A stretch of DNA of 44,911 bases from a virus: positions 1 through 44,911 of the IMG/VR virus record IMGVR_UViG_3300033149_003571. One strand, written 5' to 3'. The translations under genes and the position numbers were made by a program. Positions 1-44,911 of the stretch are shown here, in pieces (position 1 is the stretch's first letter; every line of letters begins with the position of its first letter). The notes under the pieces are model-generated. The model was not told where the DNA came from, searched no databases, and saw nothing but the letters and a program-made list of their open reading frames with translations.

Positions 1-114
1 CAGGCCGATTTTGATTATGGGGTATATGCTGGAACCCCCTTAGCTCAAATGTACAAAGAGGGAGAGGGGGATTGGCAAGTTGGGAAAGTATATCCTGAAG
101 CGTATAATCTTTAT
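1..114. repeat. Terminal direct repeat, left copy
   Basis: The first 114 bases are identical to the last 114 bases (44798-44911). The reading frame of a structural gene continues unbroken across the join, so the molecule was most likely assembled as a circle and this is the overlap. It could reflect circular permutation (headful packaging) or a short terminal repeat. A sequence this short that coincides exactly with the contig ends is more typical of assembly overlap than of physical ends. Confidence 0.95.
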
Positions 115-2018: not shown

Positions 2019-5000
2019 ATGTACTATGTAAGTCCCCTATCAAAGATCCACGAACGAATAAAAAGATATACATCTCCTACCACTCGGCGCAATTTGACTC
2101 AGGCCGAACGGGAGACAATCCCTTACGTACGGGCAGAGCAAGCCAAACGAGAACGTAAACGAAACTGGCTCAAACCCATCGAAGCGATCTTTGACCTCCT
2201 TCAAAGGGGGCAATATGTAACCGCCAATACCGCAGAACAAATTATCCGCAACCTTCGGGAGGGTGAACCCGCACTGAAAGGTGTGGCCCGGGAAGCATGG
2301 GAGGGCCTAACAGGCAAAGAGAAGGGTGACTGGGAGAATGTTCTGTTTGGCGGCAAGGATGTAGGCGGAGAAGAGTTTGAGGGGCTTTTCAAAGACATAG
2401 ACAAAGAAAGATGGGAGAAGCCCGTTCTTGGCAAATGGGCTAAAGGAAAACCCATCATTGGGGCAACGGGCCGGGGCCTGGCCGGACTTGCTGCTAACAT
2501 CTTTTTAGATCCTACTACATATATAGGTTTTGGACCTACTACCGCAGCCCGTGCTGCCGCGACAAAGTATGCCGACGACGTTGCGCGCCTAACCATAAAA
2601 CAATTCGTCAAGAATCCCGAAACATTAGCCAAACTTGCCCGCAAGGGTGGGTCCGAGCTTGCAGAACGCATCGAGCGCCTAGCCATAAAAAATCCCCAAG
2701 AAGCCTTACGATTACTCCAAAAGAATGTAGGTATTGATATCTCTCAACACATGGCAAAGGTGGCAAAGGCGGCCAAGAAAGAAGCTCTAAGATTGCCTGA
2801 GAAAGAGTTGCGAGAGAAAGCTCTAGGCAGGATAACAGAGGCCCGAATAGTCCCGGCCAAGAAAGTGCAGGAGGGTATACAGCGCCAGATCAGAAACCTA
2901 GCGAAAGAATATGCAGACTATGGACCCGCAAAAGGACTTTCTGATCTGATTAATGAGCACGTCGCCGGTTACGTGAGTAAAAAAGAAGCTGTTACTGGTT
3001 TGAAATATCTAGACGAATTAGCCGAATCAGTGCAGAAAGGTGCATATGCCGGTGCAGGAACTAGGGCGGCCCGATTCATGCGGAAAGAGTTTGCCATAAG
3101 TGAACGATATCCAGAAATACTGAAAGCCTGGGATAATCTAGGTAAATGGTGGACTGAGAAAAGCAAGATAGGTGGGTATTTCTCTGATGCCTGGTGGGCT
3201 ATGATGAACAAAGGCGTGGTAGGGAAGCTGAAAAAGATGTTCAATATTCGCAATCCTTACCAGGAAATCTTAGCCCGCACGGTCCAGGACGCCAAAGCAG
3301 CTACAACCGATACCATAGCTCGCACACAACAGGGTTTGGTGGATCTATTAAAGCCCTTAGATGAAAACAGCATGCGGGCGGTACGAGAGTTGTTAATAAC
3401 GGCCCAGGGGGAGGCGGTAGACTTTCGCAAGATGGCCCTTGAAATGGGAGTAGCGACGGACAAGATTGATCTTGTGGTAGAGACTGTCGCTTCTATCAAT
3501 AATCTAACGGCCATGTGGCGCAAAAGACTGGAAGAACTCGTGCAAGACGGGATTATCAAAGAGGTTGGGGAGATTGAGAATTACCTTCCGGTCCGTAGAA
3601 CGGGCACGGGGTTCTACAAAAAAGCGCCTACCCCAATTACAGCCAGGCATCCCGGGTTCTTGTTTGCTCGCACCGCGGGATTTGAAGAGAATATTGCTAG
3701 CGAGGCGGCCAAGCTTAAATTTATTTTCCCCGAGATCAGCGACGAAGCAGCTCAATCACTGGTAAGGGAAGGAGCGGGAGATCTCCAAACAGACCTTTAT
3801 CAAATGTTGTTAGGTCGTGGCATGGCCCAAGCGCGCCTAGAACAAAGAGCTTCTATCATAAAACAAATCCGGGAAATGGGTTTTAATCTGAAACAGGCTG
3901 CTGAAATGGATGACGAGCTTGCCCAGATCATGGTTAATAACCAAACCGTTTTGCAACAGTTTGGCCTACAAGCGATCCCCGATGATGCGCTAGAGGGATA
4001 TTTGTTTGACAAGGAAACATCCGAAATATTGGGAAAGGCTATAAAAATTACAGCAAGTGACGAGACCTTGCGAACCGCCGCACAGTGGATTGGGTCTTTT
4101 ACCGCTTGGTGGAAAGCATGGGCAACTGCTTCTCCGGGGTTTCACTGGAGAAACCATTACTCGAACAATGTCACGGGAATCCTTAAACACGGTGCGGAAT
4201 GGTTTAATCCAAGGAATAATTTTGAAGCATGGGCTGGGACCATAGCGGGGCTTGAAAGAAAAAATGCTTTCAAGAAACTTGTTGCCGAAGGAGTTGATGA
4301 GGCCATGGCAACAGGCATCTTGTCTCGGATATATGGGGGGAAAAGCCTGGAAGAATTGGCAGCATATGCCACTCGCAAGGGGGTTATCGCTCGTCACGTC
4401 ATGGGATTTGATGCGCCTAAAACACTAGAGGGCGTACTAAAACAAGGCGATGCCTTTAAAAAAATAAATCCTATGAGCAAAGAGTTTGGTCTTTTGCAAG
4501 GTAGTTATGCCCTTTCCATGTATGTTGAAAATACCGCAAGGTTTCATTCGTTTATGCTTGATTACAAACGAGCCCTCAAGCAAGGCAGTGCCCCGGAGAC
4601 TGCTATGGAATACGCATCTTTGCAGGCGAAGAAATGGTTCTTGGACTATGATGATCTTAGTCCCTTCGAGCAGAAGGTAATGAAAAGCATAATCCCCTTT
4701 TACTGTGTGCCCACCGATGCCGAGATATTAACCAGAGAAGGATGGAAAACAAACACTCAATTACGAAAGGGCGAGGATGTACTGGCCTATGATGTAAAAA
4801 CTGATACTGCTTTTTGGTATCCTCTTAAAAATGTCGCAGTTTTTAATTATGATGGCATTCTAATGTCTATCAAGAATCGGACCAACGGAGAATATCTTTT
4901 CACACCGAATCACAAATGGCCCGTTTTTGTCGCTCAAAATTATGCCACAGGAATCAATCGGAAGATTGTAAGGGGTTATGAATTAAGAAGTGGATACAGG

Positions 5001-6572
5001 ATACCGCTAACCGCCGCCCAAACACAATGGCCGCAAAAATGTTCTATTTCTGTTCGGGAAGCGAAAATTATTGGATGGGTTTTGACGGACGGTTCGATAA
5101 AACAAAAAACTAAGAATTTTTATCAATATGTGATTTATCAGGCTGATCACAAGTTTGCTGAAGAGATAAGGGAATTATTGAATGGTGAGTGTTCGGAATA
5201 TGTTCATCCCTTAACACGAGTTAGGCGGTTTGAATTAAATGGTAACCTAAGAAAACGAATACAATCTCTGATTACATCCAAGACGAATAATGAACTTCTT
5301 ATTACTAGTTTGTCTAAAGAATGTGCAGAGGCCATGTGGGATGCTATGTATAAAGCAGACGGAACTATTGTTAGAGAACGGAAAACCCGTCCCGGGGTGA
5401 TGACAGATTTGTTTTTTGCAGCTAAAAGATCGACGCCTAACGGAAAAGCGGTGGGAGATTATTTTCAGATTCTTTCTATAATGCTTAACAAAGTTGCACA
5501 CATGACAAAAGACGGAAAAGGGATGTATATTCGGAAAAATTCTGTTAGGCGATTTATCAAAATAGGCAAAGACAATAACGCTTTAGGTACAGAATGGTAC
5601 AAGGGCGAAATATGGTGCCCTGAAATTGATGGATTATGCTGGATGCTTCGGCGAAATGGGAAACATATCTGGAGTTCAAATACCTGGATCAGAAAAAACC
5701 TAGCAAACCAAATTCAGGGCATGTTTGACTTTAGAGAAATGTATAGTATGATCCCCAAGCTTAGCAAAGGGGCTCCCGGGGTAGAGAAATCAGAGATGCC
5801 GAACTGGATGCGGGATTTGGGGTATATTCCTTTTGAGGTGGAAGAGGGCGAGGCCAAGATGTTCTGGCCCAACACCCCTTATATGGACGTTAACAAGATC
5901 CCCTTGAAGTTTGAGATGAGCGCCGGGGGGATTCCTGTACCGAAATGGGGCGGGGATGAAATATTGCGAGATGTTGTTTCAAATGCCCATCCCTTGATTA
6001 AGACGGCTGTTGAAATGGTAGGTAGGCGTGATGTGTTTAAAGATACTCCCCTTGATGACAATCTTGCTTCCCCACGCTTGATGCGTATTTTGGCGGGCAA
6101 AGACGGAGATGCCAGGATTTTAACTTGGCTTGACGGATTTTTACGTCTGGCCGGATGGGAGCGGGGGCTTGACCCGGATGTAAACGAAGAGGGCCAATTG
6201 ACTCTCAACCCCCTGGTTGTCAGGGCACTTGAGAACAATATTTTATTTTTAAAGAGAATCCCGCAGTACTTTGATTTGCCCGAAGCTGTTTTCCCTGCCC
6301 TACAAGAGGTAAAGAACAAGGCCGGCGCAGTGGGGGATTATGAGAAAGCGGATGAACAGCTAGAGGAGATATTTCAGATACTTTCTTTCTATCTAGGCGT
6401 GAAAATGAAGACGTTGGACGTTGAGGAACAGCGCCAATACGAGGCTCGGGATGTATTGAAAACAGCCGAAGAAGAGCGGTACAAACAGATGAAAAGATTA
6501 CCCGGGTATTCTAAGAGAAAGGCGGAATATATCAAGCGCAGTATCAAGCGCCAGAAAAGGTTAGGATTGTAA
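2019..6572 (+). CDS. Large internal virion (ejection) protein interrupted by an intein
   Basis: A 1517-aa precursor of which residues 896-1221 are an intein, leaving a 1191-aa mature protein. The N-extein ends IIPFY and the C-extein begins TWIRKN, so splicing restores PFYTWIRKN, a conserved string I associate with very large phage virion proteins. A hydrophobic stretch lies near residues 148-170 (GLAGLAANIFLD), and the rest is helical and rich in Lys, Arg and Glu. It is the largest protein here, between a coiled-coil virion protein and the tail fibre, consistent with a DNA-ejection protein. The stop overlaps the next start (TAATG). Confidence 0.75.
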   Translation: MYYVSPLSKIHERIKRYTSPTTRRNLTQAERETIPYVRAEQAKRERKRNWLKPIEAIFDLLQRGQYVTANTAEQIIRNLREGEPALKGVAREAWEGLTGKEKGDWENVLFGGKDVGGEEFEGLFKDIDKERWEKPVLGKWAKGKPIIGATGRGLAGLAANIFLDPTTYIGFGPTTAARAAATKYADDVARLTIKQFVKNPETLAKLARKGGSELAERIERLAIKNPQEALRLLQKNVGIDISQHMAKVAKAAKKEALRLPEKELREKALGRITEARIVPAKKVQEGIQRQIRNLAKEYADYGPAKGLSDLINEHVAGYVSKKEAVTGLKYLDELAESVQKGAYAGAGTRAARFMRKEFAISERYPEILKAWDNLGKWWTEKSKIGGYFSDAWWAMMNKGVVGKLKKMFNIRNPYQEILARTVQDAKAATTDTIARTQQGLVDLLKPLDENSMRAVRELLITAQGEAVDFRKMALEMGVATDKIDLVVETVASINNLTAMWRKRLEELVQDGIIKEVGEIENYLPVRRTGTGFYKKAPTPITARHPGFLFARTAGFEENIASEAAKLKFIFPEISDEAAQSLVREGAGDLQTDLYQMLLGRGMAQARLEQRASIIKQIREMGFNLKQAAEMDDELAQIMVNNQTVLQQFGLQAIPDDALEGYLFDKETSEILGKAIKITASDETLRTAAQWIGSFTAWWKAWATASPGFHWRNHYSNNVTGILKHGAEWFNPRNNFEAWAGTIAGLERKNAFKKLVAEGVDEAMATGILSRIYGGKSLEELAAYATRKGVIARHVMGFDAPKTLEGVLKQGDAFKKINPMSKEFGLLQGSYALSMYVENTARFHSFMLDYKRALKQGSAPETAMEYASLQAKKWFLDYDDLSPFEQKVMKSIIPFYCVPTDAEILTREGWKTNTQLRKGEDVLAYDVKTDTAFWYPLKNVAVFNYDGILMSIKNRTNGEYLFTPNHKWPVFVAQNYATGINRKIVRGYELRSGYRIPLTAAQTQWPQKCSISVREAKIIGWVLTDGSIKQKTKNFYQYVIYQADHKFAEEIRELLNGECSEYVHPLTRVRRFELNGNLRKRIQSLITSKTNNELLITSLSKECAEAMWDAMYKADGTIVRERKTRPGVMTDLFFAAKRSTPNGKAVGDYFQILSIMLNKVAHMTKDGKGMYIRKNSVRRFIKIGKDNNALGTEWYKGEIWCPEIDGLCWMLRRNGKHIWSSNTWIRKNLANQIQGMFDFREMYSMIPKLSKGAPGVEKSEMPNWMRDLGYIPFEVEEGEAKMFWPNTPYMDVNKIPLKFEMSAGGIPVPKWGGDEILRDVVSNAHPLIKTAVEMVGRRDVFKDTPLDDNLASPRLMRILAGKDGDARILTWLDGFLRLAGWERGLDPDVNEEGQLTLNPLVVRALENNILFLKRIPQYFDLPEAVFPALQEVKNKAGAVGDYEKADEQLEEIFQILSFYLGVKMKTLDVEEQRQYEARDVLKTAEEERYKQMKRLPGYSKRKAEYIKRSIKRQKRLGL
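4704..5681 (+). other. Intein with LAGLIDADG-type endonuclease domain
   Basis: A 326-residue in-frame insertion. It starts at Cys896 (block A-like CVPTDAEILTREGWK), has a TPNH motif near residue 962 (block B TxxH), and ends GKHIWSSN before Thr1222. The centre carries two degenerate LAGLIDADG helices, IIGWVLTDGS (about 1017-1026) and MWDAMYKADGTI (about 1106-1117), so it probably encodes or once encoded a homing endonuclease. The +1 residue is Thr, and the penultimate residue is Ser where His is usual, so splicing may be slow or need compensation. The insertion point is inside a conserved extein motif, as is typical for inteins. Confidence 0.9.
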
Positions 6573-15367: not shown

Positions 15368-15395
15368 TCACAAAGAAGCCAAGCGGGTAAAGGAG
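15368..15395 (+). repeat. 28-bp direct repeat, copy 1
   Basis: Identical over 28 bases to 15844-15871 (same unit, 476 bp apart). Each copy ends in AAGGAG and serves as ribosome binding site for the following gene. In one frame it reads HKEAKRVKE followed shortly by a stop in both copies, so it looks like the preserved 3' end of an ancestral gene left when new genes were inserted. Confidence 0.85.
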
Positions 15396-15408
15396 CAGGA
15401 GTAAAATC

Positions 15409-15843: not shown

Positions 15844-15871
15844 TCACAAAGAAGCCAAGCGGGTAAAGGAG
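15844..15871 (+). repeat. 28-bp direct repeat, copy 2
   Basis: Second copy of the unit at 15368-15395. It supplies the SD for the gene at 15880. The two copies bracket the gene at 15409-15837, so that gene could be lost or gained by recombination between them. Confidence 0.85.
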
Positions 15872-15879
15872 TAGGGAAA

Positions 15880-21200: not shown

Positions 21201-21251
21201 CCGAACAACGACTATACGATCCTACAGGCGATAGCGGAGATAGAGAGGTAA

Positions 21252-21273
21252 GTAACCTGGGAGGGGAACGATG
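21252..21273 (+). repeat. 22-bp translation-start repeat, copy 1
   Basis: Identical over 22 bases to 21936-21957. The unit includes GGGAGGGG and the ATG start of the following gene. The two copies bracket the damaged PAPS-reductase gene, so start signals have been copied or the gene inserted between them. Confidence 0.85.
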
Positions 21274-21935
21274 ATATCAGAACACATAAAAATTGCAATC
21301 AGACGTCTCCAACAATTTGAACCTCCAGAGGGTTATTATCTTGCATTTTCTGGAGGCAAGGATTCGACCGTTCTGTTGCATCTTGCCAAAGCTTCAGGTG
21401 TTAAATATGACGCACACTATTTGAAAAAGGTTTTCCAAGGCGGCAGGGGCGATGGTGCTGTGAAGAATACAAAGAAGGCGGGGGATCTGGCCGGGTGGTT
21501 TTGACCGGAATTCGAGCGGCGGAGAGTGCGCGACGAGGCAAGCGCCGCATGGTCGAAATTTGCATGAAAGATCCAAGCAAGCGGTTCGTTCATCCTTTGA
21601 TTGATTGGACTGAACTGAACATCTGGTCTTACATTCGCTCGAAAGATATCCCATATTGCGAGTTATATGATCAGGGATTCAAGCGCCTTGGCTGTTTGTT
21701 CTGTCCGATGATCTATTACAAACGGCGACAGGCAGAAGTGCGTAGATATCCACGATATGCATCTGCCTTTCGCAAAGCTTTCCGAAAACTGTATGCCCGA
21801 CGCAAAGAGGCGGGAGCTAAATCTATAGATCGCTGGACAGATGGTGATGCGATGTTCGAGTGGTGGATCGGCGACGGGGGGGATGAACGAGGACAACAAT
21901 TGATGCACTTTGATTCAGATGAGGCGAAGAGATAG
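21271..21935 (+). pseudogene. PAPS reductase-family gene with internal gap and frameshift
   Basis: The first frame (21271-21504) has the PP-loop YYLAFSGGKDSTVLLHLA near residue 22 and then runs into unrelated residues after KYDAHY. A second frame, open from about 21420, reads FEKGFPRRQGRWCCEEYKE, then VLTGIRAAESARRGKRR and CLFCPMIYYKRR: the normal middle and C-terminal parts of phage phosphoadenosine phosphosulfate reductase-like (adenine nucleotide alpha-hydrolase) enzymes. About 35 expected codons are missing at 21415-21425, with a change of frame. Either a real deletion or an assembly error. If translated separately, the second part could start at GTG 21495. Confidence 0.8.
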
Positions 21936-22056: not shown

Positions 22057-23365
22057 CCGTGATTATGACAGTTATGTGGGCTGGTTCCCTACTGGTCTAG
22101 CTTATGTTGCGGCCTCTTTAAGATCCTGGGGTCATGAAGTGATGATATGGGATGCGGGTGTGTATCACTGGGATTATGGATGCCTAACCCAATATTTAAA
22201 CGATACTTATTTTGACATAGTAGCTTTTGGCCTAGTAGGAGGATATTATGAGTATAAAGAAGCTAAGAAACTTGTAAAAGCGATTGGGGAATCAGTTAGG
22301 CGCCGGCATTTCCTGCTTGTGGTGGGAGGACATCTATTTAGCCCCGAACCAGATTGGTTTTTGGAGCATTGGAATATAGATCAAGTAGTTGTCGGTGAAG
22401 CAGAGTTGTGGAACCCAGAAAAATACCCTTCCCCGGGAATCATCAAGGAATCCCCTCAAGAGGATCTTTTGTTTTTGCCCTTCCCCGCCTATGAGCTTTT
22501 CGAGATAAATCATTATGTACTCCACCGTTTTCATGCTCATATGCACCGGCGGGATCGGGCTCTCCCCATAATTAGCAGCCGGGGATGTATCTTTCACTGC
22601 AACTTTTGTTATCGCATGATCGAAGGCCAGCGTCTAAGAGATCCCAAGGATGTAGTGGAAGAGATAACGATGTTGCAAAAAGAGTATGATATCAATTATA
22701 TTTCCTTTGCTGATGAACTTTTTATGGCCTCAAAAACCAGAGCCGTAGAGATGGCTGAAGCATTAATGCCCCTTGGAATTCGCTGGGATTGCATGGGAAG
22801 GTTAAATTATGCTGACCTTCAGGTACTTAAAACCATGAAAAGAGCAGGATGTGTGTTTATCAACTACGGTATTGAGCAGTTTGACAACTGTGCCCTCCGT
22901 GCTATGCACAAAGCATTAACAGAGAATATAATTGTTAAAGGCATAGAAGCTACCTTAGAAGCGGGGATCAGCCCGGGCCTAAACATGATCTATGGCAATG
23001 TAGGAGATTGGCGTGTATCTTTGCAGAAGAGCATTGATTTCTTATTGCGTTATGATGACGGAGTACAGCTTAGGACAATCCGACCGGTTACGCCTTATCC
23101 TGGCTCTGATCTCTACAAGCAGGCTGTTGAAGTGGGTCTTATTAAAGATATCGGAGACTTTTATGAAAACCTACATACTAATTCCGATCTTTTAACAGTT
23201 AATTTCACCCCGTACACGGACGAGGAAGTCTATGAACACATTTGGGCGGCAAATCGCCGCCTAACCGATAATTATTTTGATAAGAAAAAGAAAGAAATGT
23301 ACGAGCAGCTTAATAAGCTTTACGGAAAGAAAGATGCAAGTTTTAGGGGGTTTAGGCCAATATGA
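22037..23365 (+). CDS. B12-binding radical SAM enzyme
   Basis: A 442-aa protein. The N-terminal cobalamin-binding-like Rossmann domain starts MKILLINRDYDSYVGWFPTG. The radical SAM cluster motif is C184-x3-C188-x2-C191 (RGCIFHCNFCYR). ISFADELFM and FINYGIEQFD follow, as in BchE/HpnJ-type enzymes. It lies in the sugar cassette and may make an unusual sugar, lipid or methyl modification. The last 37 codons are duplicated downstream at 23802-23912. The SD is poor; the start is inside the upstream ORF. Confidence 0.85.
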   Translation: MKILLINRDYDSYVGWFPTGLAYVAASLRSWGHEVMIWDAGVYHWDYGCLTQYLNDTYFDIVAFGLVGGYYEYKEAKKLVKAIGESVRRRHFLLVVGGHLFSPEPDWFLEHWNIDQVVVGEAELWNPEKYPSPGIIKESPQEDLLFLPFPAYELFEINHYVLHRFHAHMHRRDRALPIISSRGCIFHCNFCYRMIEGQRLRDPKDVVEEITMLQKEYDINYISFADELFMASKTRAVEMAEALMPLGIRWDCMGRLNYADLQVLKTMKRAGCVFINYGIEQFDNCALRAMHKALTENIIVKGIEATLEAGISPGLNMIYGNVGDWRVSLQKSIDFLLRYDDGVQLRTIRPVTPYPGSDLYKQAVEVGLIKDIGDFYENLHTNSDLLTVNFTPYTDEEVYEHIWAANRRLTDNYFDKKKKEMYEQLNKLYGKKDASFRGFRPI

Positions 23366-23401: not shown

Positions 23402-23776
23402 ATGACTAAGAAAACGTATCGGAAACATATCAAAGCGAGACTAGCAGAAGGCAAAAAGAAACTATGCTTGCGGTGGCGTCATAAATTAATGATGCATTTA
23501 GCTTTTCGAATTACTAAATGTATGGGGGTTTCATACGAGGCTAATGCAGTAGTCGATATTGTAACTTGCATGATTTCGTATTTTTTTGCACTTACTAGGC
23601 GTCTATCCGTGGCAGACATGACTATTGTGTGGCTAAAGGATGGGCCGGGTAAAGTATACTGTGTTATGGGTCGGTTTGGTGATAAGAACACAATCTTGAA
23701 TATGCTACATAGTGCTAAAATGATGGTTGAGGGTAGTATACCACTTGTAAAGAAAAGTAAAACCTGGGATGATTAA
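23402..23776 (+). CDS. Hypothetical 124-aa protein
   Basis: SD GGGGAG lies ahead of the ATG at 23402. The N-terminal 35 residues are strongly basic (RKHIKARLAEGKKKLCLRWR), then an alpha/beta region with ADMTIVWLKDGPGKVYCVMG. The family is not recognised. It sits between the radical SAM gene and a copied fragment of that gene's 3' end, so it may have arrived with the duplication. Confidence 0.55.
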   Translation: MTKKTYRKHIKARLAEGKKKLCLRWRHKLMMHLAFRITKCMGVSYEANAVVDIVTCMISYFFALTRRLSVADMTIVWLKDGPGKVYCVMGRFGDKNTILNMLHSAKMMVEGSIPLVKKSKTWDD

Positions 23777-23912
23777 GTACTGCAAAATAGACTCCGACAT
23801 ACGCCGCCTAACCAAAAATTATTTTGATAAGCTAAAAGAAAAAATGGACGAAAGGTTAAAAAAATTGTATGTTGAGAAAGATGCAACCTTTAGGGGATTT
23901 AGGCCCGTATAA
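23769..23912 (+). pseudogene. Duplicated 3' end of the radical SAM gene (47-aa ORF)
   Basis: Bases 23802-23912 (111 nt) align without gaps to 23255-23365, the radical SAM 3' end, including stop codon position. The peptide RRLTKNYFDKLKEKMDERL parallels RRLTDNYFDKKKKEMYEQL. Both copies begin at CGCCGCCTAACC, i.e. at the genome-wide octamer. An ATG at 23769 in frame gives a 47-aa ORF. A TATAAT hexamer lies across its stop (23908-23913). Confidence 0.75.
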
Positions 23913-23960: not shown

Positions 23961-24670
23961 AGGTGCTGTGAGCGAGATTGATGGACAAGCTAGAACACGG
24001 GGATGCTGTCAAGCGGCGAGAGACGGGAATAAGTCCCCGTACGAGTCCGATGCCCGTGGGACACATTCAATTGCGCTCCATCGAGGTTACGTGTTTTGGC
24101 GCTGAAGGGCATGGTGGAGGGAAATGTAGTAGGTGCCGGGAAACCGGGCAGCACCTTTTATATTGCTGGCGCTATCAGAAAATGGAAGTGGTAGGTCGGG
24201 ATAAGTGTCGGATTGATCAACCGGAGGGCTACCCCGATACGCAGGTTCGAGTCCTGCCGCTGGCTATAAACCAGCGCGGCTCAAGGCATTATGGGGCTAA
24301 GGGGTAGAGGGTGAGCGGACTGCACCGATTATTCGGGTGGGGTGATTGCAGAGATTTCTCAGCGGACCGCCACAGGGTTGCCGCCTGTCGCTGGCTGGAG
24401 TGCTAAAGGTTCCTACTTTCTGACAAGTACCCCCGGGTACTTTGTAGTAAGTCTGCAATAGGTTAGTAGGTCAAGGTGCTGCGAGTGAATATTGCGGGTT
24501 GTATGGGGGCACCTATACACTGTGCCAGAAATGGCCTTGTCCCGGATATTGCGCTCCATCAAGGGCCACCTGCCTAGGAAGGGGTAGTTGGTGGACGAGG
24601 GTAATGTAGTAGATGCCGGGGTCACATCCGGGCAGCACCTATAGTCGGTAATCCCTCCTTGAGAGGGATT
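23961..24670 (+). ncRNA. Large structured RNA candidate with two related domains
   Basis: About 710 bases with no convincing ORF. Domain A (23961-24156) and domain B (24474-24640) are each closed by the same 8-bp pair AGGTGCTG/CAGCACCT. They share ATTGCGCTCCATC, AATGTAGTAG and TGCCGGG...CCGGGCAGCACC blocks. The middle part contains a tRNA T-arm look-alike (GCAGG TTCGAGT CCTGC, 24241-24257), then CGCTGG/CCAGCG (24258-24276), ACAGG/CCTGT (24372-24388) and AAGTACC/GGTACTT (24425-24442). It ends in an 8-bp hairpin (24650-24670). It may belong to phage giant RNAs such as GOLLD or ROOL, but I cannot confirm the class. Strand is inferred from neighbours and the TATAAT at 23908. Confidence 0.65.
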
Positions 24671-24697
24671 GACAAATGCTAGTGGGCATGATAGTAT
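24669..24697 (+). promoter_or_regulatory. Sigma70-type promoter ahead of the HNH gene
   Basis: TTGACA at 24669-24674, a 17-base spacer and TAGTAT at 24692-24697. The -35 overlaps the last stem of the structured RNA, so RNA end and promoter are interlocked. The transcript would have a leader of about 90 bases before the ATG at 24795. Confidence 0.6.
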
Positions 24698-24794
24698 ATG
24701 ATCATGATATTCTGCAAAACCTTACAATTAGCAACCCCAATATTCAGTGCCTTTGCGGGCACGCTGGATGGCGGGGTTTTTCTTTGGAGGTTTT

Positions 24795-25289
24795 ATGAAA
24801 ATATATGTTTTGGAAGTTGATAAAAATGAATATAGAGAGAAAAAATTAGCGGTAGAAATAGATGGAAATGATTGTTGGAATGTTATTTCTCATCAACCTA
24901 AAGATACTGGTTATATTGCATTCACAAGAAACGGGAAACATATAAGAATCCATAGATATATCTATGAGAAATATTTTGGTCCAATTCCAAAGGGTCTTTT
25001 CGTATGTCATTCATGTGATAATCGCAAATGTATAAATCCAAAACATTTATGGCTTGGGACCAATCGTGAAAATTTACAAGATATGATAGAAAAAGGCAGA
25101 AATAATAATCAAAAACTATCTGTATTGGGGGAAGATAATAGTCAGGCAAAATTAACCGAGAAAGATATCATAAGTATAAGAAAAGAACGCAAGACGGGAT
25201 TAACGATGAAATCATTGGCACAAAAATATAATGTAAGTGATTCTAATATACATAGAATTATCCACAGGCAATTATGGTCCCATATATAA
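24795..25289 (+). CDS. HNH homing endonuclease with DNA-binding tail
   Basis: A 164-aa protein. The ATG at 24795 is chosen for its GGAGG SD; an upstream frame extension to 24747 lacks one. The HNH core is HRYIYEKYFGPIPKG, then VCHSCDNRKCINPKHLWLGT (HNH_3 type). The C-terminal KLTEKDIISIRKERKTGLT...LAQKYNVSDSNIHRI is an HTH DNA-recognition unit as in SPO1-like endonucleases. Its DNA is more AT-rich than its neighbours, a sign of recent transfer. It sits free-standing right after the structured RNA. Confidence 0.9.
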   Translation: MKIYVLEVDKNEYREKKLAVEIDGNDCWNVISHQPKDTGYIAFTRNGKHIRIHRYIYEKYFGPIPKGLFVCHSCDNRKCINPKHLWLGTNRENLQDMIEKGRNNNQKLSVLGEDNSQAKLTEKDIISIRKERKTGLTMKSLAQKYNVSDSNIHRIIHRQLWSHI

Positions 25290-29729: not shown

Positions 29730-29956
29730 GATTTTACCTCCCAATATGGCGGCTGTATTACGTAAAATATTTTTTCTCTTGGTATTACTACAGCATGATC
29801 CCGGTCCCAATCGTGTTTATTTTTCAACCAGCGTTCCCCGGTGATGATATTACCTACAACAGATGTCACTCTGTACCACTTACCATGCGGCAACACTTTC
29901 ACCTGACAAGCTGGAGCGATATCAAAGGTTCTATAGTCATAACAAGCGATTTTCAT
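29726..29956 (-). CDS. Hypothetical 76-aa protein
   Basis: Start ATG 29956 with GGGAGG. Contains FDIAPACQVKVLPHGKWYRV and GNIITGERWLKNK: a beta-rich, small SH3- or OB-like pattern, but no named family. Translationally coupled to the downstream gene. Confidence 0.55.
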   Translation of the reverse strand: MKIACYDYRTFDIAPACQVKVLPHGKWYRVTSVVGNIITGERWLKNKHDWDRDHAVVIPREKIFYVIQPPYWEVKS

Positions 29957-29960
29957 ATCT

Positions 29961-30161
29961 TTACCTCCCGGTCTTTCTTGCGCTAGTACACATAGCCGCT
30001 AATTTCCTTTGTTCAATCAAATCTAGCAGCTTATTTATTATCTTAGCTGCTTCATTCCAGTCATCCATATTCCACTTGTTGCGTCCAGCTTTTTGCATAG
30101 AACGATTGCTTACGTCCCAACCCGCAGCGTATGCAATTTCCCTGGTAAGTAATGACTTCAT
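29961..30161 (-). CDS. Hypothetical 66-aa protein
   Basis: Minus-strand ATG 30161, SD GGGAG inside the upstream gene end. It has REIAYAAGWDVSNRSMQKAG (an HTH-like pair of helices) and a Lys/Arg-rich C-terminus. Possible small DNA-binding protein. Confidence 0.5.
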   Translation of the reverse strand: MKSLLTREIAYAAGWDVSNRSMQKAGRNKWNMDDWNEAAKIINKLLDLIEQRKLAAMCTSARKTGR

Positions 30162-33691: not shown

Positions 33692-33847
33692 ATGATAAAG
33701 GCTATCCCTGCCTCTGTCACGGCGTTTATTGTAGAACATCTACCAGGGATACGATATGGAAGACTCACAATAGACTTTATCATAATAAACGGGGAATTAG
33801 CGAGAATAGATAAAGCGATAGTACAGCAGACAAAAACAGACAAATAA
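33692..33847 (+). CDS. 51-aa hypothetical protein
   Basis: ATG 33692, 51 codons to TAA. MIKAIPASVTAFIVEHLPGI then LTIDFIIINGELARIDKAIV: compact alpha/beta peptide, not low-complexity. No clear SD (the upstream sequence is CGGGTTTTCAAT). It is followed by a strong terminator, which supports a real transcript end. Function unknown. Confidence 0.5.
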   Translation: MIKAIPASVTAFIVEHLPGIRYGRLTIDFIIINGELARIDKAIVQQTKTDK

Positions 33848-33870: not shown

Positions 33871-33926
33871 AGGATATACGGAATCCGCAAAAGTTATGCG
33901 GAATTCGTATATCCTTATTTTTTTTA
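33871..33926 (+). terminator. Intrinsic terminator
   Basis: A long stem (GGATATACG...CGTATATCC outer arms and CCGCA/TGCGG inner arms, two mismatches) followed by TTATTTTTTTT. It ends the protease operon and separates it from the large terminase block. Confidence 0.9.
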
Positions 33927-34290: not shown

Positions 34291-35426
34291 TGTCCGATAT
34301 CGCACCTAAACGCAAGCCGAGCGAACAACGTAAACTTGAAGAAATCCTCGAACTAGTTGACGGGAATGAACTTGAAGCATCGCGCTTGTATATCAAGTGG
34401 AAATGCCTAACCGATCTATATTATTTAGCGACCGAGGTTCTAGGATGGGACAAAACAAGAGAAGGGAAAAGGCGGATAGATCCGAAATTTCACCGGTGGC
34501 TCGTGCGGCTGCTTGATAGACCCGGAGATAAACTGATCCTGGTTCCCAGGGACCATATGAAATCTACCTGGGTAAAGCTAAAGATTGTTCAAGAAATCCT
34601 AAACAATCCTAATATCAGGATCTTGTTAGCCTCTGCTACTAAACGCCTTGTAGTACAAGAATTGGCGGATATTAAACGGATATTTTCAACATCTATTCTG
34701 CGTAGCTTGTTTCCGGAAATCATCCCTGATCCCGGGAAAGAATATAATGGATGGGAAAAGGCCACCGAACAAGAATTAACACTGAAAAGAGATCCAGAGA
34801 GAGGATATATTCCCCAAGGACCGCAGATTTTAGCAATAGGTGTAGGGGCAAAGATCACCGGCTTTCACTTTGAAAAAGCTTACTTGGATGATGTGATTAA
34901 TGAAAAATCAGTTACCACAGCGGATCAAATAGCGAAGGCGATAGATTGGTGGGGTTATTTACAACCCATGTTGGATACCAAAGCCGAGATTACTGCAATA
35001 GGTACTCCCTATTATTATGCAGACCTATATGCAGTAATTAAAAGAGAAAAGCTTATTGATCATATTTTTGAGCGACCCGCAATTCAGAACGGAAAACCGA
35101 TCTATAAGTACTTTTCGCTCAAGACGCTGATGCGACGAAAGAGGATGATGCGAGATGATTATAAATTTTCGTGTCAGTATCTTCTTAACCCGACGCCAAC
35201 GGAAGAAAAAATCTTTCCCCCGCCGCATCCGACAATTTCCGGACTTCCTCCGGGAGAGTATACATATTACGTAGCCTGTGATCCAGCGGCTACTACAAAG
35301 AGATGGAGCGATCATTCAGGTATTGTGATAGGTGCGGTATGTGAAGCTAATCGCCTATACATCATCGAATCGATAAAAGTGAAGATGAGCGGTGACCGAT
35401 TGGCGGATGATTGGCGGATTTGCTGA
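34290..35426 (+). CDS. terL: Terminase large subunit, N-terminal ATPase part (frame broken)
   Basis: 378 aa in this frame from ATG 34290 (TAATG overlap). Walker A is VPRDHMKSTW (about 88-97), the adenine/coupling region is IRILLASATK, Walker B is KAYLDDVIN (about 190-198), and the nuclease first Asp is in YYVACDPA near 326. The frame ends early at ADDWRIC because GATTGGCGGAT is present twice in tandem (35398-35419). Removing one copy joins LAD to LLIQKAIQYNPKRVG in the next frame. So this and the 35411-35866 ORF are one gene. Confidence 0.9.
   Translation: MSDIAPKRKPSEQRKLEEILELVDGNELEASRLYIKWKCLTDLYYLATEVLGWDKTREGKRRIDPKFHRWLVRLLDRPGDKLILVPRDHMKSTWVKLKIVQEILNNPNIRILLASATKRLVVQELADIKRIFSTSILRSLFPEIIPDPGKEYNGWEKATEQELTLKRDPERGYIPQGPQILAIGVGAKITGFHFEKAYLDDVINEKSVTTADQIAKAIDWWGYLQPMLDTKAEITAIGTPYYYADLYAVIKREKLIDHIFERPAIQNGKPIYKYFSLKTLMRRKRMMRDDYKFSCQYLLNPTPTEEKIFPPPHPTISGLPPGEYTYYVACDPAATTKRWSDHSGIVIGAVCEANRLYIIESIKVKMSGDRLADDWRIC
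35398..35419 (+). repeat. 11-bp tandem duplication breaking the terminase frame
   Basis: Two perfect adjacent copies of GATTGGCGGAT (35398-35408 and 35409-35419). Eleven is not a multiple of three, so one copy shifts the frame. It looks like replication slippage or an assembly/read artefact; one copy restores a continuous large terminase. Confidence 0.95.
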
Positions 35427-35866
35427 TCCAAAAGGCGATCCAGTACAATCCCAAGAGAGTAGGGATCGAATTCGGACAGCAGGAACATTTGAAATATGTG
35501 ATTCAGTTGAAATTAAGCGAATACAACAGAATCCATCAAACAAGGCTAGGATTTCCCATTTTTCCGATAAAAACGCCTAGAACGAAATCCAAAGCCCAAA
35601 AGATAGCTGATACGTTAGGCGCTTTTTGCCGAGCTGGAAAATGCCAGATTCTAGAAAGTTGTATTCCTTTATTGCAGCAGATGGACCTATATACAGGTCG
35701 GGAAGCGGATGAAGACGACCTGTTAGATGCCGCAAGCATGTTGTTTAATTGTATAGAAACGTTTGCGCGGCATGGAGGGATCGAGATACCCGCAGAAGAT
35801 CCTAACACGATAGCGGGCATGTTCAAACCCTCAAGACCAAACTGGGAGGATAGATTTGTTCACTGA
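35411..35866 (+). CDS. terL: Terminase large subunit, C-terminal nuclease part
   Basis: 151 aa in a different frame from the N-terminal part. It reads LLIQKAIQYNPKRVGIEFGQ then TLGAFCRAGKCQILES and DLLDAASMLFNCIETFA, the usual end of large terminases where the remaining RNase H-like acidic residues and DNA-contacting regions lie. No good SD at the apparent start. The 11-bp duplication explains the split, so the product is probably part of one ~520-aa protein in the ancestral sequence. Confidence 0.85.
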   Translation: MADLLIQKAIQYNPKRVGIEFGQQEHLKYVIQLKLSEYNRIHQTRLGFPIFPIKTPRTKSKAQKIADTLGAFCRAGKCQILESCIPLLQQMDLYTGREADEDDLLDAASMLFNCIETFARHGGIEIPAEDPNTIAGMFKPSRPNWEDRFVH

Positions 35867-36558: not shown

Positions 36559-38175
36559 TTGACCGACAATCGGCCTATTTGGAATGTCCGGGCTCGAGAA
36601 TCTTATATGCAAGACTATATCAATGTGTATAGCAAAGCGTTAGATTATCTTTGGGATAAGCTCGAACTCGATGTCAAAACTTATCGTGTTGTTAAGGATT
36701 CGCAAATTTGGCCTGTTGGATTGTGGAAGATCCGATTTGATCCAAACGCCGAGTTTGGCGGCGAAGTTGCTGTTGACCTGGAAGATCCTCGGACCTTTTT
36801 CATCTCTCCGGGAGATGACGATCTATGGAATTGTCACTATTGTGGTACGGTTAAGCAGCGTACTATGATGTGGGTAAAATCCAATTATCCAGATAAGTAT
36901 AAAGATGTAACACCGGACGATGATGTAGAAAAACGCTTAAATATGTCGGAGATGGAGGATTTTGAACTCCAGGGCCGAAAGGTCACTATTTATGAGATTT
37001 GGATGCAAGATGAAAGGATTGAAGAATATATAACCGAAGAACTGGATAAAGACGGGAATCCCGAAGAAAAGAAGGGTACCCGAAAGAAATATCCCAATGG
37101 TAGGTATGTGGTATTTTCCAAGAATGGAGTGAAACTCCAAGATGAATCTTCGCCTTTTTCTCACGGGAAACCACCCTGGGTTGCATTTTATGACTACCAG
37201 GTGCCACATTCATTTTGGGGCATTTGTGAACCGCAACAGATCGAGAACTTAAACCGTGAATTTAACGCCCGCCTGCAAGACATGGTGCATCATTGCCGCA
37301 AACACGCCCGGACTAACTATATGGTCGACGAGACGACTGGACTTGATGTAGAGACCATCAAGAAGGATCTCGCCGAGGGTGATAATGTATTCTTGGCGAA
37401 TATGAGCGCAACAGACGAACCAGTTAGGCCCGTCAAAGTAGCCCCATTCGACAAGGTCCACAGTGATTTGATGCAAGGTATTGCCGGCCTAATAGAAGAG
37501 GTATCTGGAGTAACAGATATCTCTAAAGGTATGGCCTCGAAAAAGCAACGCCAAAGTGCTTCTGAGGTAAGTATCTTAATCGAATCATCTTACACCCGTA
37601 CCCGGCAAAGGGTAAGGAATCTTGAAGCCAGTATAAAACGAGCTGCCTATTTAATGCTTGAGCTTATGCAGCAATATTATAACGAACCGAGAACTTTTTC
37701 CATGCGGAAGGACGAAGAGATTGAGTTCATGCCGATTAGCAACTCCCCGGGTTTTCTACAAGAAGTTAGCAGACCTGAACCCCAAGAAGGAGAAGATCCG
37801 GAAGAATATAAAAAACGCATAACTGAGGATGAGGATTATCAGAAAGTTGTAAAGATGATGGGCGAAGATCAGATATATGCAGCCTTTGATATTGAAGTTC
37901 AAACTAATTCAACATTGCCGATGGACAAACAGTCTCTGGCAAATTTGGCTTTGCGTCTTGGGGAAGTACAGGTAACCCCGGCAAGCGTTATTGACGATGA
38001 GGCGATATTGGATATTTTGAGGTTTCCGGCGAAAGATAAGATTTTGAAAAGAAAAGAGAAGAAAATGATGATGGGACCGCCGGGGAAAGGTAGACCTCCG
38101 GGCTTACCCCCTGCCCCAATGGGGCCACCTGGACCCGGTGTTCCAATAGGTCTACCAACGGGAGGTGCCAAATAA
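36559..38175 (+). CDS. Portal protein
   Basis: 538 aa from a TTG at 36559, but the frame is open back to about 36431 and reads EYNGEWWDKK...YIFATVETNAPLLTDNRP, so the real N-terminus likely lies upstream (see frameshift). Portal-like features: TDNRPIWNVRAR, VAFYDYQVPHSFWGICEPQ, IENLNREFNARLQDMVHHC and VSGVTDISKGMASKKQRQSA. A Gly/Pro-rich tail (PPGKGRPPGLPPAPMGPPG) ends it. It forms the dodecameric DNA channel of the head. Confidence 0.8.
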   Translation: MTDNRPIWNVRARESYMQDYINVYSKALDYLWDKLELDVKTYRVVKDSQIWPVGLWKIRFDPNAEFGGEVAVDLEDPRTFFISPGDDDLWNCHYCGTVKQRTMMWVKSNYPDKYKDVTPDDDVEKRLNMSEMEDFELQGRKVTIYEIWMQDERIEEYITEELDKDGNPEEKKGTRKKYPNGRYVVFSKNGVKLQDESSPFSHGKPPWVAFYDYQVPHSFWGICEPQQIENLNREFNARLQDMVHHCRKHARTNYMVDETTGLDVETIKKDLAEGDNVFLANMSATDEPVRPVKVAPFDKVHSDLMQGIAGLIEEVSGVTDISKGMASKKQRQSASEVSILIESSYTRTRQRVRNLEASIKRAAYLMLELMQQYYNEPRTFSMRKDEEIEFMPISNSPGFLQEVSRPEPQEGEDPEEYKKRITEDEDYQKVVKMMGEDQIYAAFDIEVQTNSTLPMDKQSLANLALRLGEVQVTPASVIDDEAILDILRFPAKDKILKRKEKKMMMGPPGKGRPPGLPPAPMGPPGPGVPIGLPTGGAK

Positions 38176-38234: not shown

Positions 38235-38360
38235 TTAACATATTAAAATTTAATTGTATTTATCATAGTTAATTACAACAATGATGGTGCATAAATCTTT
38301 TAACACTATGGCAATTTGTAATTGCTATATTAATCTAGTACTACAGCCGGGAGGTATCAA

Positions 38361-42648: not shown

Positions 42649-44564
42649 TGAGAACTATAGCGATTGATGATTTTCGGGGTGGGTATTTCACAAACGTACC
42701 CTCTGAACATCTCAAGCCAAATGAATTATTGACCGCTTTAAATTGTTATTGGGATACTACTCTAGAAAAGCGCAACGGGATAGGGATGTATGCTACCAAT
42801 TCCTGGGCCGCCTCGGATGTGATACAGGGATATTTCCGATGCTATGTACCGACGACAACTTCCTGGTTGACTATTTTGGCTGTTGATGATGGGTCTACCG
42901 TGGGGTTCTATTCTTCTACCGGTACAGGAGTAAGCGCAATTGATTCCTCGTATACCTGGACAACAGGTAATAAGGTGGAGATGGACGCAATAGGCGGGGA
43001 AGTGATTGCGGTTAACGGTGTAGATAAACCAGCTTTTCTGTACCATGATGGATCTGGTTGGATCATAGATGATCTAGAAATACACGACACAAGAGTACGG
43101 GCCACAACGAATTGGTTTGCGGGATATTTTGACAAAAGCGGATCGGATGTTGCAAGTTTATATATTGATGACTCAACAGACGCCCGGGATGAAGGAACTT
43201 TTGATTTAAATCAGGCAACCGCAAGCGATGGTATATGGGTTGCTTGTGATTATACATTTAATAAAATAGAATTCACGGAAGTAGATACTCTGGCTTCCGA
43301 TTTGGCACTTAACTATGAATACTACAAGGGTAGTGATACTTGGGGAACCTGTAGCATAGTCACGGGTCTGGCCCTGGGCGCAGCTACCGGAACTTTGACG
43401 GTTGAATGGAATTATCCTACAGACTGGGTAGTGGCAGATTCGGATTTGAGTACCGACCAGCTTGACAATAGATATGTGTTCAGGATGTACTTCACTACAG
43501 CCCCCTCGACAACGGCGGTGTGTGATTATTTGACAGTCAAACATACACAATATTTGACACAGATTTTCGATGATGAAAGACCTAAAACGGTTAAGGTGCA
43601 CAAAAATCATTACTTTTTAGGCTTCGAGAATACTGTCAATCATTCCCCATATCACAAAGCCACGAGTTGGCGGGCTGGGGATGTATATTATTTTGAAGAA
43701 GGAGGGCGCGAGATTAAGGCTTTGGAGTCTCATGGAGAATCCCTATCCATCGTGAAAGATGGGGGAATCCACGGAATATTCGGTAATTCGTTTGCCAACT
43801 TCTACCAGAAATATCTTGTCCCGGGAGGAACAGTCAGCGGGCGTTCTGTTGTAGTGCGGGACCAAGATATGTTTATGATGGACCGGGATGGGATTTACCG
43901 GTGGGATGGTGCCCAGCGCCTAAAAGTGAGCAAACATATCCAAAATGATATCGACTCCTGGGTAACCTCTAACGTAGCCTCAGTGTTGTATCGGGGATGG
44001 ATATATATGTCTTTCCCCTCAAACTCGACAACGTTAATCTTTGACCCAGATACTTTTCGCGAAGATGATATGGGGGACGGAAGAGTAAGCTTCTGGAAGT
44101 TTGATAACTACAGGGCGGATATTTTTGCCTATCACGGTGGGGCCGGTGATACCGGATATTTAGTCGCTGCTGCTAATTTTGGCCCTCCGATGTTACAACG
44201 GTGTAATAATGGTACAGATGACAGCGTTTCAAGTACCGTAGCAATAAACATGCAAGTGCAGACCCCCTATTATTCTATGGGAAATTTTGAAAAGATTAAA
44301 CATTTTGGGAGGGTAAAACCCAAAGTTGGAGAGGTAGCAAGTGCGACTGGGGCCGCCTACGTATTAACAGTATATGGGCAGGACGGAACCTCAAGCGCGG
44401 TTACAACCATGACCGCAGCGGTTGGTTCGGGATGGTGGTCTACGGATGTATCTGTGCCTTATGAACTAGATGGAAAAGGAATAGGATTCAAGATTCAGCA
44501 CAATCAGCTAGGCGCCGCCAAGATAGCTGGGTTTGCGCTGGATTATGAGTTAAGGAGATATTAA
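42648..44564 (+). CDS. Large beta-rich tail protein (nozzle/stabilisation type)
   Basis: A 638-aa protein, beginning RTIAIDDFRGGYFTNVPSEH then LNCYWDTTLEKRNGI, typical of phage tail/stabilisation proteins with beta-propeller folds. Later it has DMFMMDRDGIYRWDGAQRLK and SHGESLSIVKDGGIHGIFGN, propeller-like blades. It is the largest tail protein here and follows the adaptor, as podovirus nozzles do. Its TAA overlaps the next ATG (TAATG). Confidence 0.75.
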   Translation: MRTIAIDDFRGGYFTNVPSEHLKPNELLTALNCYWDTTLEKRNGIGMYATNSWAASDVIQGYFRCYVPTTTSWLTILAVDDGSTVGFYSSTGTGVSAIDSSYTWTTGNKVEMDAIGGEVIAVNGVDKPAFLYHDGSGWIIDDLEIHDTRVRATTNWFAGYFDKSGSDVASLYIDDSTDARDEGTFDLNQATASDGIWVACDYTFNKIEFTEVDTLASDLALNYEYYKGSDTWGTCSIVTGLALGAATGTLTVEWNYPTDWVVADSDLSTDQLDNRYVFRMYFTTAPSTTAVCDYLTVKHTQYLTQIFDDERPKTVKVHKNHYFLGFENTVNHSPYHKATSWRAGDVYYFEEGGREIKALESHGESLSIVKDGGIHGIFGNSFANFYQKYLVPGGTVSGRSVVVRDQDMFMMDRDGIYRWDGAQRLKVSKHIQNDIDSWVTSNVASVLYRGWIYMSFPSNSTTLIFDPDTFREDDMGDGRVSFWKFDNYRADIFAYHGGAGDTGYLVAAANFGPPMLQRCNNGTDDSVSSTVAINMQVQTPYYSMGNFEKIKHFGRVKPKVGEVASATGAAYVLTVYGQDGTSSAVTTMTAAVGSGWWSTDVSVPYELDGKGIGFKIQHNQLGAAKIAGFALDYELRRY

Positions 44565-44911
44565 TGGGAAAATTTTGGGATTGGTTGACGGGAACACATG
44601 ATACGGCTTGGGGACTTGATCCTGAGTTAGAAAAAGCCACAAACCCTCCCGAAGAGCCGCCTGCCTGGGAAGATTACGCCCCCCCGGAACGAACTTACGA
44701 GACCTGGACGGGTCAACAATTAGCTGATTGGTGGGCCCAAACAGGCCAGGAAGGGAATTGGTGGGATCAATATGCTAGCATTTTAAATCCTGAGGGGCAG
44801 GCCGATTTTGATTATGGGGTATATGCTGGAACCCCCTTAGCTCAAATGTACAAAGAGGGAGAGGGGGATTGGCAAGTTGGGAAAGTATATCCTGAAGCGT
44901 ATAATCTTTAT
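44564..44911 (+). CDS. Virion structural/ejection-type protein, N-terminal part
   Basis: ATG 44564 overlaps the previous stop. The 116 codons present (MGKFWDWLTGTHDTAWGLDP...) are rich in Trp, Glu and Pro (WTGQQLADWWAQTGQEGNWW). The frame reaches the window end and continues at position 1 to 1047, for 426 aa in total (codons in 44798-44911 repeat those of 1-114). Same function notes as the part at the window start. Confidence 0.75.
   Translation, partial: MGKFWDWLTGTHDTAWGLDPELEKATNPPEEPPAWEDYAPPERTYETWTGQQLADWWAQTGQEGNWWDQYASILNPEGQADFDYGVYAGTPLAQMYKEGEGDWQVGKVYPEAYNLY
44798..44911. repeat. Terminal direct repeat, right copy
   Basis: Exact copy of positions 1-114; see that entry. It makes 44797 bases of unique sequence if the molecule is circular. 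Confidence 0.95.

Follow-up and report, generated by a model that had tools for sequence, protein, structure and literature searches.

A probable rare, mobile structured-RNA family of phages, with two tandem diverged copies in one genome

Results

A gene-free locus with two related domains

The locus studied here spans positions 23961-24670 of the phage record IMGVR_UViG_3300033149_003571 (G000), whose full 44,911 nt are referred to as the window. An identical 114-bp direct repeat at the two ends of the window (1-114 and 44798-44911) makes it probable that the phage genome is complete in this record, despite its classification as 'linear, no end repeats'. The gene-free stretch has a G+C content of 56%, compared with 45% for the phage. 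Its features and those of its flanks are given below, G001 being a second phage with related copies.

23802-23910, + strand: duplicated dead 3' end of a radical-SAM/B12 gene, 76% identical to 23255-23363
23961-24156, + strand: domain A, 196 nt
24241-24257, + strand: tRNA T-arm look-alike GCAGG-TTCGAGT-CCTGC, T-loop at 24246-24252, window only
24241-24276, + strand: the T-arm look-alike followed by hairpin CGCTGG/CCAGCG, weak YrlA match
24360-24393, + strand: leader hairpin CAGCG...ACAGG-GTTGCCG-CCTGT-CGCTG; A24372-U24388 is G-C in G001
24425-24442, + strand: perfect leader hairpin AAGTACCC/GGGTACTT; G001 differs in two loop bases only
24474-24640, + strand: domain B, 167 nt, 95% identical to L156:2616-2781 in G001
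24500-24519: hairpin TGTATGGG/CCTATACA with one G-U pair
24641-24670, + strand: trailer, consisting of ATAGTCGGTAATCCCTCC (common to both G001 copies) and then a window-specific hairpin
24650-24670, + strand: that hairpin, AATCCCTC/GAGGGATT, perfect
24669-24697, + strand: promoter-like TTGACA-17-TAGTAT with TG before the -10, directly after the candidate RNA
24735-24785, + strand: terminator-like stem AACCCC...GGGGTT then TTTC, found by eye and folding, just before the HNH gene
24795-25289, + strand: HNH homing endonuclease gene (HNH_3, E = 2e-13)

Direct reading of the sequence shows that AGGTGCTG...CAGCACCT bound domains A and B alike, and AGGTGCTG is the sole 8-mer of the window that occurs at two places with its own reverse complement 100-260 nt downstream. 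At least one comparable coincidence arises in 27 of 100 dinucleotide shuffles, however, so the closing arms alone are weak evidence. Repeat analysis adds internal blocks common to both domains (29 nt at 86%, 17 nt at 94%, 17 nt at 88% and 13 nt at 100% identity), and these, together with homologous copies in another phage, show that A and B are true duplicates. The original prediction of two homologous domains closed by an identical pair is thus borne out, A and B being diverged copies of one domain. Of the further hairpins, those at 24425-24442 and 24650-24670 are perfect, and the one at 24500-24519 has one G-U pair.

The locus had also been described as gene-free, and it holds no credible gene. 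Neither the 109-aa frame (+ strand) nor the 70-aa frame (- strand) of the stretch has a Pfam match, and a one-base indel that separates domain B from its G001 homologue lies inside the conserved half, which excludes a conserved protein frame there. An indel breaks the 70-aa frame, whose start is not conserved, and protein coding was rejected. An origin of replication was likewise rejected, the GC skew being unchanged at 24 kb, and a 19-nt inverted repeat (23875-23893/24403-24421) is considered coincidental because G001 has the second arm without the first. Elsewhere in the window, a 32-nt repeat of the early region (15368-15399 and 15844-15875, 97% identical) is possibly regulatory.

Related copies in a second phage

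IMG/VR was scanned eight times, using six DNA patterns and two protein queries, the results for one broad pattern referring to the matches listed. Among the matches listed, the single other carrier is 3300033153_016045 (G001), a 47-kb phage, and the further pattern matches among those listed read as coding or unrelated sequence; at the sensitivity of these scans, 2.9 million viral contigs thus include two phages with the locus. A DNA similarity search of GenBank phages and plasmids revealed no relatives, and in the GTDB genomes, where the core 17-mer was used as a query, at least 118 stretches were fetched, none of which is homologous beyond the 17-mer. A host search through an accessory protein common to both phages gave no useful match in 611 genomes.

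G001 contains two copies. The first is a minimal domain of 117 nt (L156:1321-1437) and the second (GB) comprises a B homologue with its leader (L156 about 2495-2781), 95% identical to its counterpart in the window and including 120 nt of leader; the two are about 1.2 kb apart, and a C-5 cytosine methyltransferase gene lies in the interval. This separation by a gene argues for a single domain of about 115-200 nt as the unit and not a giant RNA of 700 nt. The trailer ATAGTCGGTAATCCCTCC follows B, its homologue and the minimal copy, and is absent after A. We note that a 16-bp perfect inverted repeat (L156:1604-1649) marks the 5' end of this methyltransferase gene, whose reading frame is apparently interrupted there (two overlapping frames).

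There is no genome-wide homology between G000 and G001, whose similarity is confined to scattered accessory stretches with DNA identities of 75-92%; these suggest a common host or gene pool. The 95% identity of B across the two phages exceeds that of the shared coding stretches, suggesting either constraint or recent transfer. One of the shared elements is a repeated accessory gene module, present at 29737-29998 in the window and at 24222-24438, 44519-44780 and 45447-45676 in G001. Another sequence of roughly 70 nt occurs once in the window (21217-21284) and three times in G001 (35363-35429, 38279-38331 and 37435-37468); in G001, one of them coincides with the 3' end of the methyltransferase gene and directly precedes the RNA leader.

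A predicted fold common to four copies

All four copies conform to the order AGGTGCTG - 1 or 2 nt - GAGYG...YGCTC - CATC - RAGG...GAGGGWAATGTAGTA - GRTG - CCGG - loop - CCGG - G - CAGCACCT, having in common the closing helix, GCTCCATCRAGG, GAGGGWAATGTAGTAGRTGCCGG and the small 3' hairpin. We propose that the domain would fold as a cloverleaf-like four-way junction with its helices in tRNA-like order: P1 would be formed by AGGTGCTG/CAGCACCT, P2 by GAGYG/YGCTC and an arm of variable length, P3 by CATC/GRTG, enclosing a large internal loop that is conserved (RAGG / GAGGGWAATGTAGTA) and ending in a variable tip, and P4, a putative mini T-arm-like hairpin, by CCGG/CCGG. The predicted elements in the window, all on the + strand, are:

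23961-23968/24149-24156: domain A, P1
23970-23974/24074-24078: domain A, base of P2
24079-24082/24132-24135: domain A, P3
24136-24139/24144-24147: domain A, P4, with GAAA loop
24117-24139: invariant core strip of A, GAGGGAAATGTAGTAGGTGCCGG, by pattern match
24474-24481/24633-24640: domain B, P1
24483-24487/24552-24556: domain B, base of P2
24557-24560/24612-24615: domain B, P3
24616-24619/24628-24631: domain B, P4
24597-24619: invariant core strip of B, GAGGGTAATGTAGTAGATGCCGG, by pattern match

P1 and the core strip are invariant. The core pattern GAGGG[AT]AATGTAGTAG[AG]TGCCGG fits all four copies and has no other match with up to six mismatches in three phages. The intervening P2 arm ranges from about 30 nt in the minimal copy to 110 nt in A, differing in length and sequence among copies with the helix kept, and the P4 loop is GAAA in A and otherwise GGTCACAT or, in the minimal copy, GTCAAAT. 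P3 as CATC/GRTG rests on nearly invariant bases and fits all four copies, whereas an alternative pairing, CCATCR/YGGTGG, is absent from the minimal copy and was rejected. A switch between the domain-closing pair and a local AGGTGC...GCACCT hairpin, proposed in the original prediction, fails on conservation: the hairpin is found in A only, and the other three copies have AGATGC.

Evidence for an RNA on the + strand

Several changes among the copies preserve helices. The 5' arm of upper P2 finds its best partner in its own 3' arm in each of the three copies compared (A, B and the minimal copy) despite their sequence differences, and comparison of the 95%-identical B regions reveals a compensatory double change in the leader hairpin at 24360-24393, where the A-U pair of the window is G-C in G001. 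The one-sided stem differences, three of three, give G-U on the + strand and none gives A-C: the fourth P2 pair is U-G in B, the fifth is G-U in the minimal copy, and a P3 pair is U-G in A. As such changes are helix-preserving only when read on the + strand, they support an RNA made from that strand. The covariation tally of one double change and three G-U changes comes from about three independent sequences among the four copies, a number at which a statistical covariation test is impossible.

Folding energies give a mixed picture. Relative to shuffled sequences, the minimal copy (z = -3.2) and B (z = -2.65) are lower, and the whole region (-0.05), A (-1.2) and the middle (+0.4) are unremarkable. 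The common model is not the lowest-energy fold of the copies: relative to the free fold, forcing it costs about 4-6 kcal/mol for the three longer copies (A, B and GB) and 18 for the minimal one, the alternative P3 (CCATCR/YGGTGG) having been the one forced in those three. Elsewhere in the window, the strongest folding outlier is near 33761 (z about -8), and 33871-33915 is a self-complementary 45-bp palindrome (84%, from a BLAST plus/minus self-match).

The pattern of copies could also be explained at the level of DNA, with AGGTGCTG/CAGCACCT as terminal inverted repeats of a small non-autonomous mobile element, or as a DNA site for a recombinase or endonuclease, and no RNA function. All four copies start at AGGTGCTG, A ends at CAGCACCT, the copies are duplicated and common to different phages, and an HNH gene adjoins those of the window. 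We nevertheless regard this explanation as unlikely: similarity continues for 18 nt past the right repeat in three of the four copies and extends 120 nt ahead of the left repeat in two, a clear target-site duplication is lacking, the conserved part lies inside the copies (the core strip and CATC block), and G-U-type changes are seen on one strand only.

Comparison with known RNA families

Rfam covariance models of 4227 families were searched both at the gathering score and at E ≤ 10, and neither threshold gave a match to GOLLD, ROOL, OLE, HEARO, introns, tmRNA or riboswitches; thus no family fits, including the group I/II introns and the others that the original prediction had named for comparison. 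With GOLLD and ROOL the locus has in common a large, G+C-rich, multi-hairpin non-coding region of a phage genome, and its size, phage setting and multiple domains are what a very distant member of these or another Rfam class would offer. Such membership is very improbable, given the lack of any match even at E = 10, and since the window unit is a domain of 115-200 nt that is also found singly in G001, with a gene between the copies; the giant-RNA resemblance is accordingly not supported. The GOLLD/ROOL members that are described in PMC12286853 form homo-oligomeric RNA complexes.

The sole Rfam signal is a weak one to YrlA (RF02553; 15.4 bits with E = 3.6, the cut-off being 69), in which the T-arm, an acceptor-like hairpin and a GCTC/GAGC stem (the D-stem) at 24241-24316 stand in the permuted order of the YrlA module. 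This match, the 7-nt T-loop-like GTCAAAT of the minimal copy, the perfect T-arm and the succession of helices (closing helix, then a D-position arm, a third arm and a T-like arm, joined by short junctions) raise the prospect of degenerate or unusual tRNA-like or Y-RNA-like genes, that is, of phage tRNA mimics. We think this quite unlikely. ARAGORN detects no tRNA or tmRNA genes in the window or L156; no match to Ro60/TROVE (PF05731) exists in the three phage records, although the host may have a copy; and the domain differs from tRNA and tmRNA in having no anticodon arm, a long conserved internal strip, a second arm of 30-110 nt and, in A, a GAAA P4 loop. The TTCGAGT T-loop of the original prediction is present as described, but its segment has no counterpart in G001.

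Other known systems were also rejected. A group I/II intron is disfavored by the absence of an Rfam match and by the position of the insertion between genes in the comparison described below; a HEARO/omega-RNA of an IscB-like nuclease by the absence of an Rfam match and by a neighboring HNH_3 protein of 164 aa without a RuvC match; and a retron ncRNA by the absence of RVT_1 from all three phages.

Insertion, neighbors and expression signals

A sister phage, 3300028840_001730 (G002; 38 kb), is about 65-72% identical to the window in DNA sequence along much of its length. Its gene order at the locus is syntenic, the insertion is absent, and there a homologue (30% identity) of the 124-aa ORF at 23402-23776 abuts the MptE-like gene directly. 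Compared with this empty site the window has about 1.6 kb of extra DNA, which shows that the dead radical-SAM 3' end, the RNA region and the HNH_3 gene constitute one insertion. The radical-SAM duplicate is situated downstream of the 124-aa ORF and immediately upstream of the RNA. We note that G002 also contains an array of roughly 45-bp repeats with regularly spaced GTTCGCTCCCTCAAGG (L280 11156-11400).

The insertion resembles a phage HNH homing cassette in that a free-standing HNH gene and its flanks are inserted relative to a sister phage, and differs in that a structured-RNA locus accompanies the HNH gene; in G001, the HNH gene closest to the RNA belongs to a different HNH subfamily and lies about 500 bases upstream. 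The insertion may have arrived by recombination with a donor phage that had the RNA downstream of a radical-SAM gene, and the HNH nuclease probably drove that recombination. Separately, a 1517-aa ORF at 2019-6572 has a weak LAGLIDADG match under the curated cut-off (residues 1014-1055, E = 5e-4) and is a possible intein.

Alternatively, the stretch could be a decayed remnant, once coding or RNA DNA, that was brought by homing and is now functionless, as the adjoining dead radical-SAM tail, the ordinary folding energy of A and the small number of relatives might imply. We assign this a small probability, for B is 95% identical between unrelated phages with helix-tolerant changes, and none of the four copies, not even the diverged A, departs from the core strip.

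The promoter scan gave no promoter-like site upstream of domain A and one good one, starting at 24669 after the RNA; the terminator-like stem at 24735-24785 went unscored because the scan has a loop limit of 8. Transcription that reads through from the genes upstream is the probable source of the RNA, which processing would then shape. What lies downstream varies by copy (domain B, the HNH gene, the methyltransferase and a 100-aa ORF), an argument against a riboswitch acting in cis.

Discussion

Phage genomes contain many structured RNAs without an assigned function, and to our knowledge few are known to move as accessory modules between unrelated phages. The original prediction of a structured RNA of a possible new class survives in part: four copies in two phages, helix-preserving changes, a frame-breaking indel and the lack of an Rfam match favor it, and the likeness to giant RNAs is not supported. 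We hold with moderate confidence that the locus is a non-coding, structured-RNA locus of the + strand with two diverged copies of a new cloverleaf-like domain that would be stand-alone, partner-binding and moved by HNH endonucleases. The family is probably a rare new mobile one of phages, with two tandem diverged copies here, and its structure and function are provisional.

Since the downstream genes differ from copy to copy, the RNA would act in trans as a stand-alone molecule, and its conserved internal loop is a putative binding site for a protein or other partner; spread between phages may occur by co-conversion with HNH homing endonucleases. More tentatively, the domain may stand for a class of non-coding RNA new among mobile phage elements: compact and cloverleaf-like, its internal loop invariant, present singly or in tandem, it would be an RNA that hitch-hikes with HNH homing endonucleases between unrelated phages of one host and has a trans effect on a host or phage factor.

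The rarity of the locus limits the weight of a new RNA family for now. The copies are of very different length and include a natural minimal form of 117 nt, which provides an experimental handle. If the interpretation is correct, a structured-RNA family is missing from Rfam, and the acquisition of RNA by phages would be tied to homing endonucleases.
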